IMG/VR virus record: IMGVR_UViG_3300044627_000709
Coordinates: 1-30,754 of that record
Reading direction: 5' to 3' (one strand)
DNA: 30,754 nt
DNA from: a virus
Part shown: positions 12,723 to 23,941 of the stretch, in pieces
How the letters are laid out: the number at the start of each line of letters is the position of its first letter
Position numbering within the stretch: the stretch's first letter is position 1
Program-made: the position numbers and the translations under genes
Notes under the pieces: generated by a model
What the model was told of the DNA's origin: nothing
Seen by the model: only the letters and a program-made list of their open reading frames with translations
Database searches by the model: none

Positions 12723-12899
12723 TTATATTTCGCCACAAGGCTTACAATTCTTTTTGAAATATACTTTGCAATCAGTCCCTTCGTGGTTGCATGGTTCGTC
12801 ATTAAAGTAAACCTGACCTTCAGTAGCCTTAGAAGTAAACCGAAGGCAAGATAATTTTAGCTTGCATCTTTGAGGCTTACACATTGTAAATTCTGCCAT
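12723..12899 (-). CDS. Cys-rich mini-protein, 58 residues
   Basis: The frame starts MAEFTMCKPQRCKLKLSC and contains eight Cys, with the pattern C-x4-C-x5-C-x-R-F-T-S-K, then YFNDEP and C-x4-C-x6-C-x2-C. This spacing suggests metal binding. The same C-x4-C-x5-C-x-R-[FY]-T-[SA]-K signature occurs in the plus-strand protein at 28158-28406. The gene lies just after the capsid terminator and two bases before the methyltransferase. No promoter is obvious in the 45 bases upstream. Confidence 0.75.
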   Translation of the reverse strand: MAEFTMCKPQRCKLKLSCLRFTSKATEGQVYFNDEPCNHEGTDCKVYFKKNCKPCGEI

Positions 12900-13003: not shown

Positions 13004-14275
13004 TTAAGTAGTCTCAAGGATAGCCTTTGCAGCTGCAAAAGTTCCTTTAACCAATACTGGAGTATCGTTAGCAGAGATAAACTGAACCAAACGCTGCTCA
13101 ATTCTTACAGTCTTCAAGTTGTCGATAAAGTCATCACCTGACTCACCAATTGCTACTTGCAAACCGCTTCTCAAACGTACGTTGATTACTGAAAGGTCAC
13201 CACCTACGAAGTTAGCAGCAGTTCCAGTCAAAGCGTTAGTTGGGATAATGTTTACACCCCAAGCAGTAATTCCACCTTGTGCATTGAAAGTAACGCCAGC
13301 TGGCAAGATATATTGCTTTTCTGCATCCTTCTCAGAAAGCATCAAGTGATATTGTCCAGTCTCAACGAATACGCCAGTAGCAGTTCCGTTTGCAGCTCTT
13401 ACTTGAGCGATGATTCCGTGGATAACATCCCAGTTAGTAGCAGACTCAACACCACCAGCCATTGAACCGCCAGTGAAAGTGGTAGACTTAGACAACAAAC
13501 CAGCAAGCTGAGGAGAAGTTCCGTTACCAGTGAACAACTGGTTTTCAATTACAGTCTCAACACGCTTAACGCCATTGGATTGGATGTAAGAAGCCAAGTA
13601 AGCGGCATCCTCAAGCATTTCCATAGAAACCTTCATGTGAACACCAATCTTTTCAACCTTAGCTCTCTGCTCCTTGTATTGTACGTCGATTTGAGTTTTC
13701 TCAACACCTTCGCCAATCATTACTGGAGTTCCTTGTTGGTCGTATTCTTCAACCCATACTGCATACTGAGTACCGATTGCTCCAACGCTTGCGTTAGCAA
13801 GGTAAACCAACAAACGCTGACGGATAGGAGAAACAACACCTGTAAACTCAGAGATTGTTACTTGTCCTGAAGACGCTTCGTTAGCAATAGTTGAAGCTAA
13901 AGTGATAGTCCCAACTGACTTCTCGTTAATTTCAAATACCAAAGGAGCCTTAAGACGAGCGTTAGGCTCATTCTTCAAACGCTCGATTTCAGCTTTAACT
14001 GGAGCGTAAGCCTTAATAAATGCAGTCTTGAAATCTTCTGCACTTACTTCTTTCTCAACTGCGCTTTTTTGCATAGCGATGTCAAGCTTGTCAAGTTGCT
14101 TTTGCATTTCTGCTGCATCTTCTTTACTTACTACATTGTCGAATGATTTCAACAATGCTTCAGCCTTTTCGAAAGCCTCGTTAGCTTTCACCTCTGCATT
14201 GCTTGCTTTAGCCTTAAGAGCCTCGCCAGCTTCTGCAATCACTGCCTTTACGGCATCAATTGTTAGATTTTCCAT
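13004..14275 (-). CDS. HK97-fold major capsid protein
   Basis: This 423-residue protein has the layout of HK97-type capsids: an N-terminal helical, Ala/Glu/Lys-rich segment (residues 1 to about 105) typical of the scaffolding delta domain that the protease removes, then the shell domain. Shell features include FTGVVSPIRQRLLVYL, MKVSMEMLEDAAYLASYIQS, an ENQLFTGNGTSPQ loop and FVGGDLSVINVRLRSG. It follows the prohead protease (12-bp overlap) and has higher G+C than the genes after it (28 of 60 bases in 13201-13260). The cleavage site is probably near residue 100-110 (inference). Confidence 0.9.
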   Translation of the reverse strand: MENLTIDAVKAVIAEAGEALKAKASNAEVKANEAFEKAEALLKSFDNVVSKEDAAEMQKQLDKLDIAMQKSAVEKEVSAEDFKTAFIKAYAPVKAEIERLKNEPNARLKAPLVFEINEKSVGTITLASTIANEASSGQVTISEFTGVVSPIRQRLLVYLANASVGAIGTQYAVWVEEYDQQGTPVMIGEGVEKTQIDVQYKEQRAKVEKIGVHMKVSMEMLEDAAYLASYIQSNGVKRVETVIENQLFTGNGTSPQLAGLLSKSTTFTGGSMAGGVESATNWDVIHGIIAQVRAANGTATGVFVETGQYHLMLSEKDAEKQYILPAGVTFNAQGGITAWGVNIIPTNALTGTAANFVGGDLSVINVRLRSGLQVAIGESGDDFIDNLKTVRIEQRLVQFISANDTPVLVKGTFAAAKAILETT

Positions 14276-18910: not shown

Positions 18911-19242
18911 TCGATTGGAGGCGTGATTTTGTCGCCTTTAGTTGTATGGTCGTGGTCAAACTTATCCCTTTGCCCTAGCCTTTGTTTTCCTAGCCAAATA
19001 AGCATACCTCGGTCTTTATCCTTTAAAGCTGCCTCGTATTGCTTGGCAAGTAGCAACGCATCTCCCTTGCTCCTATTTTGCCGCAAAAACTCGGTAAAAC
19101 CCATCGCGAGGTCATCTTTGCAGCGGTTGTAAAATGTCTCCTCGTCTATGCCTAAATAAGCAGCACATTGGACTCCTGTACATCCAGCCTGAACGAGTCG
19201 CCCCATTTCTATCCAGTCTATTGGTGATTTTGGTCGTGCCAT
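18892..19242 (-). CDS. terS: Terminase small subunit
   Basis: The 116-residue protein has an N-terminal helix-turn-helix (MGRLVQAGCTGVQCAAYLGI, then DEETFYNRCK), as expected for DNA recognition by small terminases, followed by a helical oligomerisation part (DALLLAKQYEAALKDKDRGM). The ending GLIWLGKQRLGQRDK-like pattern (here MLIWLGKQRLGQRDK) is a frequent small-terminase signature. Its ATG overlaps the stop of the ABC/GNAT gene by one base (TAATG), which couples the two translationally. Confidence 0.9.
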   Translation of the reverse strand: MARPKSPIDWIEMGRLVQAGCTGVQCAAYLGIDEETFYNRCKDDLAMGFTEFLRQNRSKGDALLLAKQYEAALKDKDRGMLIWLGKQRLGQRDKFDHDHTTKGDKITPPIEWIKSE

Positions 19243-20312
19243 TATTTTAATTCAAATGAAACTGTAATTCTATTTTGAGATGTGTTCATATTTCCAACTG
19301 TGCTACCTTTACTTTGACTTTTTGTTCTTCCACTTCTAGTACAAATCCAATTTTTTGATTTTTTTAATGAATTTATTAATGATGGTGAAGAAGAAACGAT
19401 GTTAAATCTCTGTTGTTGTTTTTTGTAAAAATAACCAATCTCATTCAATAATTTTATGCCTATACCAAGACCTTGATAATCCGGAAGAACAACCAATCTG
19501 TGAACTTTTTTTATATTTTTTGCACTAGGATGTGGAAAATGTAAAATTGAAATGAATCCTGCTACTTCATTATTTACAATTGACACATAAACTTCTGATG
19601 CATTATTATGAGAATGACTTAAATAGTGATGCTTTGCAAACATTTTCCATATTCCCTTATCTTTTGTGTTGAATATTTCAAATTTAATTTCTGGTCTATT
19701 TTTTTTTTGCCCTTCAAGAGATTGAAAGGTCATTGTATCAGTATTAAAAATCCAATCAGGCAAAAGCCAATCTATTATATCAAAATGGCAAGAAATTGCT
19801 ATAAATTGTTTTTTTGTCTTTCTAATTGCTTTTTGCATTGCAAATGAGCCTATTTGAGCAACTTGTCTGTCAACAACAGATGTAAATTCGTCAAAAACAA
19901 ATAAATCTTGATTTTCAAGAATTGCTCTTGCTAAATCAACTCTCATTTTTTGACCATTAGATAAAACTGAATATGGTTTTAGCCAAGATGGAGGAGAAGA
20001 AAATCCAACAGAATTAAAAGCTTGAGTAATATCATCGATTGAACAATTTTTAGGCATATCATCCAAAACTGTCTCTGACTGATAATCATAACTAGTAATA
20101 TATGATTCGGGAAAAAGTTGTTTTGCTATTGTTGTTTTTCCTGTACCTGATTTTCCAACAATTATTCCTATTTGCCAATTGTTTGACAAATCAATATTAC
20201 CCTCAAATTTTTCTACAATATGTTCTGATTGTAAATCAAATTTACCAATTACTGAAGCAACTCTAAATGTTTGCTTTGGTTTTACTTCTTTTATAATGTT
20301 AAAAGTCGGCAT
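19242..20312 (-). CDS. ABC-type ATPase fused to GNAT acetyltransferase
   Basis: In this 356-residue fusion, residues 1 to about 200 are a soluble ABC ATPase: Walker A GKSGTGKTT (53-61), signature LSNGQ (117-121), Walker B LFVFDE (137-142) and switch His H176. There are no membrane segments, so it is not a transporter. Residues 210-356 are a GNAT domain with FAKHHYLSHSH (226-235) and the acetyl-CoA pyrophosphate loop RLVVLPDYQGLGIG (272-285). It overlaps the ParB-domain gene by 22 bp and the small terminase by 1 bp. The gene is much more A+T-rich (30 G/C of 120 in 19321-19440) than the terminase (28 of 60 in 19021-19080), a sign of transfer. GNAT-fold Mom of phage Mu modifies adenine in phage DNA, so a DNA-modification role is a reasonable hypothesis only. 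Confidence 0.85.
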   Translation of the reverse strand: MPTFNIIKEVKPKQTFRVASVIGKFDLQSEHIVEKFEGNIDLSNNWQIGIIVGKSGTGKTTIAKQLFPESYITSYDYQSETVLDDMPKNCSIDDITQAFNSVGFSSPPSWLKPYSVLSNGQKMRVDLARAILENQDLFVFDEFTSVVDRQVAQIGSFAMQKAIRKTKKQFIAISCHFDIIDWLLPDWIFNTDTMTFQSLEGQKKNRPEIKFEIFNTKDKGIWKMFAKHHYLSHSHNNASEVYVSIVNNEVAGFISILHFPHPSAKNIKKVHRLVVLPDYQGLGIGIKLLNEIGYFYKKQQQRFNIVSSSPSLINSLKKSKNWICTRSGRTKSQSKGSTVGNMNTSQNRITVSFELK

Positions 20313-22349: not shown

Positions 22350-22979
22350 TTATATTAATTTATCTAAATCCTTGTTTTCTCTGATTGCTTGTAAAATAAA
22401 CAACTTCCAAATTTTGTTCTTGGTCTTGGCTCCAACGCTGGTCTCGTCTACATATCTCACCGTAAAGCGTAACTCTTTTCGCACGTCGTTCTCCATCTCC
22501 TCCACGTTAAACTCCCAAGGCTTTAAAATTCCTTTTTCTTGAAACTTATTAAACCAGTTCATGCCCCATTCTGCAATATCCCTGCAAAATCCTGTGTCCT
22601 TGGCATACTGGTAATTATCTCGAAATATCTGCTTTCCAACCTCAATCCAGTAGGCAATCTCTTCGTTGCTGGGTTCGCTTTCTTTGTTATTTAAAGCTTG
22701 GACTTCTTGCACAATTTGGCTTTGGTGATGGGCATAATATTGATTTATCCAAACGCTAACTGTCTTCTCGTTTACGTGGTAAAAATCGCCGTACTGCCCT
22801 CGCATACCAGCGTGCAAAATGTAGTCAACTCTTGCCTCTGTCATCCAGCCGTAGCTTCCAAATAATTTACTGAGGCATCCAAGTAATTCGTTTGCCTCTT
22901 CTTTTTTGTATTCTTTAAATTGCTTTAGTCCGCAAACAAACTCCATCTTTCGGAGGTGCGTTAAAATTATCTCATTCAT
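22350..22979 (-). CDS. Phage replication-region protein, 209 residues
   Basis: This mainly helical protein begins MNEIILTHLRKMEFVCGLKQ, with a middle region RVDYILHAGMRGQYGDFYHV followed by NEKTVSVWINQYYAHHQ. In Bacteroidota phages genes of this kind follow a DUF6291-type gene, and I infer a part in replication initiation or helicase loading. No catalytic motif is visible. It overlaps the upstream gene by 8 bp. Confidence 0.6.
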   Translation of the reverse strand: MNEIILTHLRKMEFVCGLKQFKEYKKEEANELLGCLSKLFGSYGWMTEARVDYILHAGMRGQYGDFYHVNEKTVSVWINQYYAHHQSQIVQEVQALNNKESEPSNEEIAYWIEVGKQIFRDNYQYAKDTGFCRDIAEWGMNWFNKFQEKGILKPWEFNVEEMENDVRKELRFTVRYVDETSVGAKTKNKIWKLFILQAIRENKDLDKLI

Positions 22980-23676
22980 TGTTTAGGTGTTTTTGTTTTT
23001 GTAAGTCTTCGTAAAGTTCGTCAAAAACATTGTAGGTCTTTGACTTTTCAGCTGGCTTGTAGCTGGTTTTTAAATTGTTGGCTAAATAAAGGTTAAAACT
23101 ATTTTCAGCCTTGGCAATCGTCATGTTTTCGCCTTCTTTAATTGTTGCCCATTTTTCAAATAGTTTTTCAATGGTTTCGTTATCTGTTGAATGTACGTGC
23201 GCCATTCTTTCAAAATACGGCCGCTTTAAAGGCTTTTCTTTTTTAAAATCAATAAAGACCTCCTCCAAAGAAAAAAGTGCGCCAGCGCTTATTTGATTGT
23301 TTACATTACCATTTACATTAACATTATCATTTACATTAACATTACCATTTACATTAACAGCTAGGTTTGCTAGAGAATTTGTAGCATTGCTAGGATTTGC
23401 TAGGTCATTTCTAGCATTGCTAGCTTTTGCTAGACCTCCCTTTTTTCCAGCTTCAGACCTTAAATGTTTTTTCTCATCCCAAATTTTTAGGTCCCTTTTA
23501 AGCTGGGTCTTAATTGGAAGGAATGCAAGGCGCACAAACTTATCTTCAGCCTCAGGATTCTCATCGTTAACATAGCTAAAAATATGCTTAATTAACTTTC
23601 CAGCTTGCTCATCGTCAAGCTCTTCAAAGACTTCTCTTTGGTCCGTGTACAATACAAATGATTTTTTGCCTTCCAT
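22972..23676 (-). CDS. DUF6291-like replication protein with low-complexity linker
   Basis: There are 234 residues. The N-terminal domain (LYTDQREVFEELDDEQAGKL, then IKHIFSYVNDENPE) is typical of DUF6291 proteins in Bacteroidota phages. Residues about 80-130 are a repetitive linker, first LAKASNARND / LANPSNATNS, then alternating Asn-Val. The C-terminal domain (about 135-234) has IDFKKEKPLKRPYFERMAHV and may bind DNA or a helicase. The ATG follows the base of a terminator-like hairpin by 9 bases, so expression probably depends on that leader. Confidence 0.7.
   Translation of the reverse strand: MEGKKSFVLYTDQREVFEELDDEQAGKLIKHIFSYVNDENPEAEDKFVRLAFLPIKTQLKRDLKIWDEKKHLRSEAGKKGGLAKASNARNDLANPSNATNSLANLAVNVNGNVNVNDNVNVNGNVNNQISAGALFSLEEVFIDFKKEKPLKRPYFERMAHVHSTDNETIEKLFEKWATIKEGENMTIAKAENSFNLYLANNLKTSYKPAEKSKTYNVFDELYEDLQKQKHLNNE
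23300..23358 (-). repeat. Tandem 18-bp repeat encoding Asn-Val linker
   Basis: About three units of CCATTTACATTAACATTA (plus-strand reading; second unit starts TC) begin at 23309, with a degenerate part before them. They keep frame and encode hexapeptides such as NVNVNG and NVNVND. Copy number could change by slippage without breaking the frame. Confidence 0.8.
23365..23432 (-). repeat. Imperfect 30-bp tandem repeat encoding LAxxSNAxNx
   Basis: Two and a part copies encode LAKASNARND, LANPSNATNS and LAN. At DNA level the element AGCATTGCTAG and TTTGCTAG recur. It lies directly next to the Asn-Val repeat, so the whole linker is made of short expansions. Confidence 0.65.
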
Positions 23677-23713
23677 AAAATAAAAAACCCAACTGGTGGT
23701 AGACAGTCGGGTT
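23677..23713 (-). terminator. Terminator-like hairpin just before the DUF6291-like gene
   Basis: A 10-bp stem (one G-T pair) is followed by TTTTTTATTTT on the minus strand. The next ATG starts 9 bases after the stem, so termination here would shut off the gene and read-through would express it. Confidence 0.65.
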
Positions 23714-23765
23714 CAGGTTAAAGTTAACCTATGGAATTATTCTAGCTACCACACTGGAATAATTC
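23677..23765 (-). ncRNA. Structured leader RNA with three hairpins and complementary loops
   Basis: The predicted transcript starts near 23765. Hairpin 1: GAATTATTC (23765-23757) pairs perfectly with GAATAATTC (23742-23734), with a 14-nt loop containing GTGGTAG. Hairpin 2: AGGTTAA / TTAACCT (23730-23715) with a 2-nt centre. Hairpin 3: AACCCGACTG / CAGTTGGGTT (23713-23686), one G-T pair, with an 8-nt loop containing CTACCAC, then TTTTTTATTTT. The two loops are perfectly complementary over 7 nt, so a kissing interaction is possible. It could be an attenuator, a stabilising leader for the gene at 23676 or a stand-alone small RNA. Confidence 0.6.
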
Positions 23766-23771
23766 GATACA

Positions 23772-23799
23772 CAAATATAAATCTTTTAGATTTATCCAA
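23772..23799 (-). promoter_or_regulatory. Promoter for the leader RNA and replication genes
   Basis: TTG (23799-23797), 17 bases, TATATTTG (23779-23772) is a good match to the Bacteroidota consensus. Start of transcription, about 7 bases on, falls at the first base of hairpin 1. The -33 part overlaps the end of the preceding gene. Confidence 0.75.
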
Positions 23800-23941
23800 C
23801 TAGTGAACGCTTCTTTAGTTGAAAATAAATACAACCGTAGGATAGTCCCATTTCTTGAGCAATGACCTTAATTTGTTTTCGGTCTCGCCAGCCTTCAAAG
23901 ATTAACTCTTTTTCGTGTTCGGTTAAATTGCGGCCTCTCAT
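23792..23941 (-). CDS. Small helix-turn-helix protein, 49 residues
   Basis: The frame overlaps the nuclease gene by ATGA. The product MRGRNLTEHEKELIFEGWRD, then KQIKVIAQEMGLSYGCIYFQ, is a lone helix-turn-helix with the recognition helix near residues 32-42, like a shortened transposase-type or sigma-region-4-type HTH. It could be a DNA-binding regulator. Its 3' end contains the -33 box of the next promoter. Confidence 0.7.
   Translation of the reverse strand: MRGRNLTEHEKELIFEGWRDRKQIKVIAQEMGLSYGCIYFQLKKRSLVG

Follow-up and report, generated by a model that had tools for sequence, protein, structure and literature searches.

A promoter-terminator leader with matching loops before a probable replication gene of a Flavobacterium-type virus

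On the minus strand of this viral DNA (the window, i.e. the whole analysed stretch of 30,754 nucleotides) a compact leader with hairpins, two of which carry matching loops, lies directly before a phage gene. Does it control this gene, does it give rise to an independent RNA, or do unrelated elements merely lie side by side? The window encoded phage genes for terminase, portal, head protease, major head protein, ERF and Gp157, and the host of its nearest annotated relatives is Flavobacterium. No integrase or repressor was found among the window ORFs searched. Adjoining the terminase genes, positions 19242-20312 encoded a 356-aa protein with ABC-ATPase-like and GNAT acetyltransferase matches.

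Promoter and fold of the leader

The leader and its neighbours comprised the following features, listed in the direction of transcription.

23792-23941, minus strand: small HTH-like ORF, 5' neighbour of the leader, with its stop at 23792
23796-23799, minus strand: TTGG, candidate -33 element, 16 nt upstream of the -7 box
23772-23779, minus strand: TATATTTG, Bacteroidota -7 element, perfect match to TAHHTTTG
about 23767, minus strand: predicted transcription start (+1), placed from the G of the -7 box at -5
23734-23765, minus strand: hairpin 1 (sequence and fold), perfect 9-bp stem GAATTATTC/GAATAATTC, presenting loop 1
23746-23752, minus strand: kissing sequence GTGGTAG of loop 1
23715-23730, minus strand: hairpin 2 (fold), 6 bp and a 4-nt loop, class I only
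23685-23714, minus strand: hairpin 3 (fold and terminator scan), intrinsic-terminator hairpin AACCCGACTG/CAGTTGGGTT
23696-23702, minus strand: kissing sequence CTACCAC of loop 3
23677-23685, minus strand: T-rich terminator tract TTTTATTTT, abutting the start codon
22972-23676, minus strand: gene for a DUF6291 protein (PF19808, E 3e-25), the putatively regulated gene, with its ATG at 23676

The first-pass annotation had described a near-consensus promoter placing the transcript start at hairpin 1. The predicted start does fall there, but the promoter is of another kind: a sigma-70 scan had no entry at this site, and we rejected a sigma-70 promoter in favour of the perfect Bacteroidota -7 element. 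In Flavobacterium the consensus of this element is TAHHTTTG with its G at -5 (PMC6847099), and TAnnTTTG is also known from F. psychrophilum (PMC9723704). This spacing puts the predicted start 2 nt before hairpin 1. Among loci chosen by their downstream protein, the -7 box was present in 43 of 43 with DUF6291 and 59 of 61 with Lin1244. Hairpin 1 most commonly began 6 nt past the box (38 of 89 leaders), and since it lies close behind the box in relatives it should form the extreme 5' end of the RNA, which would fall about 5 nt past the TANNTTTG box. The candidate -33 element TTGG was conserved among class I relatives (the type of the window leader), a conservation confounded by the coding region, as it overlaps the 3' end of the HTH-like ORF. 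TTG at suitable spacing was found in 58 of 89 distinct leaders.

Most of the anatomy described at first was borne out by the sequence, i.e. the perfect 9-bp stem of hairpin 1 (23765-23734), the 10-bp stem of hairpin 3 (11 bp if a G-U pair is counted) with its T run, the complementarity of GTGGTAG and CTACCAC in loops 1 and 3 over 7 nt, and the ATG 9 nt past hairpin 3 when counted from the 10-bp terminator stem. Hairpin 2, credited with 7 bp, has 6, as a seventh pair would leave a loop of 2 nt. The predicted fold of the leader RNA had a free energy of -31.3 kcal/mol against -15.0 +/- 2.9 kcal/mol for shuffled sequences (z -5.6), and 0 of 200 shuffles equalled the real sequence. The three-hairpin layout turned out to be general in part. 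Hairpins 1 and 3 recurred in relatives, the stem of the former being kept with differing letters and that of the latter retained through compensatory changes (helix 3 of class II), whereas hairpin 2 belongs to class I and is weak or absent outside it, where an A-rich linker takes its place.

Loop pairing and distribution among phages

Class I relatives were gathered through similarity of the downstream protein alone, with no requirement placed on the leader. A perfect 7-nt loop match was present in 104 of 104 loci picked in this way: all 43 DUF6291 loci with upstream sequence carried the -7 box, the leader and the match, and all 61 Lin1244_N loci the leader and the match. The two Lin1244_N loci with a different -7 box both had GTAGGAG as their matching loop sequence. 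Counted by distinct leaders, loop 1 paired with loop 3 in 63 of 63 class I cases, with neither a mismatch nor a G-U pair. Six codes occurred with their exact complements (GTGGTAG, GTAGGAG, GTCGGAG, GTGAGAG, GTCGCAG and GTGGAAG). The outer positions GU..AG were invariant and the three central positions varied, always as Watson-Crick partners and with no G-U intermediate. The loops were spaced tightly, at 40-45 nt. Predicted duplexes between loops of five codes had a mean of -12.0 kcal/mol for cognate and -4.8 kcal/mol for non-cognate pairs. As a MAFFT alignment of all class I types (A1) misplaced the loops, class I pairs were counted by script, and covariation was tested formally in class II.

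Class II leaders have a different scaffold, with GGTAGCTGA-kiss-ATTAAGCTATT, an A-rich linker and a terminator with an internal loop, and carry the codes CTTCGAC, CATCGAC, TATCGAC, CATCCAC, CATGCAC and CAACGAC. With the kiss treated as a pseudoknot, 98.8% of cells were paired overall. The kissing helix of 7 pairs showed double changes at 5 and pairing in 100% of cells, a value that is partly ascertained because these leaders were found with a detector that required a match; this detector places no demand on alternative letters at five positions, nor on covariation of the terminator stem, where 5 of 11 pairs had double changes. The covariation score was 0.362 against 0.120 for shuffles, with 0 of 500 shuffles reaching it, and sliding the partner by one column reduced the covariation of the kiss to 0.03-0.04. 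The covariation that had been suggested as a check on the leader is thus found in related phages, with loop complementarity kept through compensatory changes in about 90 distinct leaders; the finding named beforehand as fatal to the idea, loops whose complementarity is not conserved, did not occur.

Isolated phages of Flavobacterium, Olleya and Cellulophaga had the same leader layout in unrelated letters. Their loops were CGGGCAGG/CCTGCCCG in Flavobacterium phage 11b, TGAGAGC/GCTCTCA in Elemovirus (elemo), GTGAGACG/CGTCTCAC in lillamy, hattifnatt and tooticki, GTGGTGG/CCACCAC in Olleya phage Harreka_1 and CTCTCACAA/TTGTGAGAG in Cellulophaga phage phi13:2.

Outside class I, an internal loop rich in purines breaks the terminator stem. 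It is GGAU/UGAA in class II (L323-L367, e.g. L329 1871-1970) and AGUA/GAA in phage 11b, Harreka_1 and L310; further sites with such a loop are L228 33621-33720 and L231 30069-30180. The AGUA/GAA loop resembles a loop-E/sarcin-ricin motif. The linker after hairpin 1 of these leaders is A-rich (AAAAACATT), and internal loop and linker together may form a tertiary docking element.

A simple first detector had a background of 8 matches per 667 kb, and a stricter one was therefore adopted that combined the -7 box, hairpin 1, hairpin 3, the T-run and a loop match of at least 7 nt. In the window it reported exactly one site, the leader described here. It gave 181 matches, corresponding to 92 distinct leaders, over 2.55 Mb of sequence, 7 matches in 240 kb of isolated-phage and similar sequences and 0 in 370 kb of dinucleotide-shuffled phage DNA; most comparison contigs were metagenomic. 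Harreka_1 and phi13:2 were missed by this detector, owing to its filter against two-letter kisses and to a short hairpin 1, respectively. Neither the examined stretch of Bacteroides phage B124-14 nor the initial 50 kb of crAss001 nor 12 kb of Riemerella phage RAP44 yielded a leader with this detector. Two covariance models (R1 and R2), the E-values of which are rough, were each run against 400 Flavobacteriaceae genomes and returned chance terminators only, without the kiss, and a plasmid search gave no match. No family of Rfam 15, isrK and C4 included, reached its gathering score in the window. The best match below threshold in the leader was ncr1575 with 24.5 bits against the 60 needed, and in the loci of six relatives Rfam recognized a tRNA and DUF805b only, both outside the leaders. 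The DUF805b RNA (RF02914, 52 bits) lay at 12781-12815 of lillamy9-1 (L229), just before a ParB_N-like gene. Judged by these sequence comparisons, the leader belongs to a known general kind of RNA and forms an undescribed family within it, carried by many viruses of Flavobacterium-type hosts.

Downstream genes and exchange of leaders

The distance from terminator stem to start codon had a median of 12 nt and was at most 20 nt in 84 of 89 distinct leaders; some leaders stood 26-46 nt from the ATG. The proteins encoded behind them were non-homologous, namely DUF6291, Lin1244_N (PF14297), SGWIKLHR-type and MDKLQWF-type proteins, and the leader also preceded ERF, helicase and HNH endonuclease genes. 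Three leaders with three codes were present in hattifnatt9-1 (L230, at 9358, 13299 and 14334), and contigs L039, L349 and L357 had two leaders each, with codes differing within a contig. The hattifnatt9-1 leaders precede a helicase gene, an HNH endonuclease gene and a replication operon. A leader with the code CGTCCAC lies directly before the ERF recombinase gene in L349 (at 310) and L357 (at 559), where the second leader follows further on.

The gene behind the window leader had been called a replication gene. Genomic context and the annotation of similar proteins speak for this, and a structure match was not obtained. DUF6291 relatives are annotated as 'replication protein' in Elemovirus and Olleya phages, and in Elemovirus primase/helicase genes lie downstream of them. 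The last 27 residues (..NVFDELYEDLQKQKHLNNE) are common to DUF6291 and Lin1244_N-type initiation proteins, which are otherwise unrelated, and this stretch is perhaps a helicase-binding tail. It was seen in relatives L187-L201 and at 22972-23056 (minus strand) of the window. The fold model of the DUF6291 protein was of low confidence (pLDDT 60) and had no meaningful PDB match, and a sequence search was empty; the replication role therefore rests on context, and we regard the protein as a probable replication protein. Its gene further contained in-frame direct repeats of 18 and 30 nt at 23300-23425 of the window (NVNGNVN-type and LAN/SNA-type), which form a low-complexity linker joining the two halves of the protein.

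The leader often differed between phages whose flanks were more than 90% identical. Between the window and L127, identity was 90% upstream, 61% in the leader and 94% in the gene; the corresponding values were 96%, 73% and 96% for L123 and L132, and 94%, 61% and 92% for L126 and L135. On a tree of 34 DUF6291 genes the code changed at least 15 times, and on a tree of 50 Lin1244 genes at least 18 times, against a minimum of 4 in either tree if each code formed one clade. Different codes between near-identical flanks together with repeated changes on the trees indicate that whole leaders are exchanged, which may stem from selection for differing codes or from recombination alone. Phages sharing a metagenome did not avoid equal codes, with 5 same and 8 different where shuffling gave a mean of 2.7 same. 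The only other GTGGTAG in the window was at 13479, inside a coding gene, and no separate partner RNA was found in the window for either loop.

Possible modes of action and known systems

The first-pass annotation had offered two readings, an attenuator whose terminator is governed by pairing of the loops and a small RNA in its own right. Its own promoter, its terminator, the start codon at a median of 12 nt and the conserved loop pairing fit the attenuator, within which hairpin 2 is not a general part. A promoter and a G+C-rich hairpin with T-tract before the start codon give the general layout of such a device. Tentatively, and at somewhat less than an even chance, we read the leader as a promoter-terminator attenuator controlled by loop-loop pairing whose short RNA also acts in trans. 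Most transcripts would stop at hairpin 3 and yield a stable RNA of about 90 nt, while a minority would read through and express the replication protein, and the pairing of loops 1 and 3 would determine the frequency with which hairpin 3 closes in time. In trans, finished short RNAs would bind, loop to loop, to nascent leaders of the same code, and downstream expression would then depend on the number of same-code leader copies transcribed, i.e. on a feedback from genome copy number. Termination, read-through, pairing in the cell, and action in trans with its sign are all steps that we infer. No sequence core was conserved across classes, which makes a binding site for a ligand or protein a poor candidate and points to pairing as the selected trait.

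Two further candidates were rejected. In the case of a ligand-binding riboswitch, loops, stems and linkers all differ between classes while the pairing persists, and a conserved core is lacking. As for a type III toxin-antitoxin RNA, no direct-repeat family was reported in the leader and the downstream genes include those of DUF6291, Lin1244_N, ERF and helicase.

We lean towards feedback by the terminated RNA, directed at sister transcripts that share its loop code, for two reasons. The known systems closest in working, P4 CI RNA, IsrK and pT181, steer termination or read-through by same-strand or loop-loop pairing and have regulators that act in trans, and codes swap. Code diversity alone does not prove action in trans, the class II loop helix having 5/7 and the terminator stem 5/11 pairs with double changes. 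The invariant outer loop positions of class I, and the window's lack of a separate partner RNA for either loop, also speak against the favoured reading. As class II loops show no clear excess of change over the terminator stem and equal codes are not avoided within a metagenome, we go no further than favouring this reading. An attenuator working in cis only is nearly as likely as the trans feedback. The kiss within the same nascent RNA would tune or time the terminator, by delaying or speeding the closure of hairpin 3 or by making it sensitive to the speed of elongation, to temperature or to a general factor, and recombination would swap leaders in which any complementary pair works, hence the differing codes. 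All of the covariation is equally compatible with pairing in cis, as are the tight spacing of class I loops, an A-rich linker long enough for the hairpins to meet outside class I, and codes that are not avoided within samples. Cis pairing alone leaves unexplained, however, why leaders between near-identical flanks are repeatedly replaced by others of different code, and judged from the geometry a formed hairpin 2 would shorten the class I linker.

A stand-alone phage small RNA with other phage or host targets, the downstream gene being served by leak-through or from upstream promoters, would agree with the leader's own promoter, strong terminator and compact, very stable fold, and with the prediction of a stable 90-nt RNA. 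We consider it improbable, as the leader lies within about 20 nt of the start codon in nearly all cases, the downstream gene varies in type and is usually one of replication or recombination, and loops whose codes change freely cannot recognize a fixed outside target. Even less probable is control of translation, in which hairpin 3 would block initiation on the read-through mRNA and the short RNA would open or close it, as for IsrK. Hairpin 3 does end 9 nt before the ATG, structure at the start codon tunes translation in Flavobacterium (PMC6847099), and IsrK is a case in which the terminated short isoform can switch on, in trans, the isoform that results from read-through (PMC4825925), but the T-tract is conserved, which puts termination first in order of effect, and the ATG of some members is 26-46 nt away. 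That the terminator of an upstream operon happens to lie beside an unrelated hairpin might be suspected in an AT-rich genome with 18 terminator-like sites in 10.8 kb against 9 expected; the covariation, the conservation in every one of the 104 loci and the lack of detector matches in shuffled DNA refute this coincidence, to which we give practically no chance.

Extending the preferred trans attenuator, we think it unlikely, if conceivable, that the leader is an address-coded, RNA-only copy-number sensor of Flavobacteriia phages, in which the terminated leader pairs in trans via interchangeable codes of 7-9 nt. If true, co-infecting phages or separate operons would be coupled or insulated by their code, in the manner of plasmid incompatibility groups.

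Several known systems resemble the leader. In the P4 passage of PMC4825925, the CI RNA with seqA and seqC is likewise a case of short complementary stretches within one transcript that control premature termination upstream of replication genes, with regulator and target on the same strand. P4 is a temperate phage. Its CI RNA results from the processing of a longer transcript, whereas the short RNA here would be the terminated transcript itself; moreover, in the leader one loop pairs with the loop of an intrinsic terminator, and no sequence or Rfam match was found. The layout shared with P4 CI and P1 C4, with complementary and covarying segments in one leader, is a resemblance and not homology. 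The single promoter of IsrK (Gifsy-1) gives rise both to a terminated short RNA and to an mRNA made by read-through, as that of the leader would, and the shorter IsrK RNA base-pairs in trans with the longer one (PMC4825925). IsrK differs in acting on translation of a small ORF before the antirepressor, comes from a different host phylum and has no Rfam match here, and a kiss of a 5'-hairpin loop with the terminator loop is not described for it. In pT181, kissing hairpins decide terminator formation before a replication initiator gene with specificity residing in the loop sequence (PMC4878617). The pT181 regulator is a separate antisense RNA fully complementary to its leader, whereas the two partners seen here are parts of one RNA and match in their loops alone. 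An attenuator of this type is also found in pIP501. In ColE1, loop-loop pairs of 7 nt between RNA I and RNA II decide replication control and incompatibility, much as the loop codes here might; they involve a primer RNA and the antisense strand and not a terminator-controlled mRNA. The C4 RNA of P1 and P7, temperate phages of Enterobacteria, is again a same-strand leader, in whose own operon short complementary boxes occur, and shows phage specificity. It differs in blocking the translation of ant; C4 gave no Rfam match in the window leader. By the sequence tests made, the leader belongs to none of these systems. It adds a structured regulatory RNA family absent from Rfam and found repeatedly ahead of genes in the replication region of many unrelated Bacteroidota phages, with 11b, lillamy, hattifnatt, elemo, Harreka_1 and phi13:2 as isolated carriers that can be tested in the laboratory. 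As matching loops are the sole trait conserved throughout the family, these leaders are a natural set of mutually distinguishable attenuators, and they allow testing whether phages, by RNA codes like those of plasmids, meter their early genes or recognize co-resident relatives.
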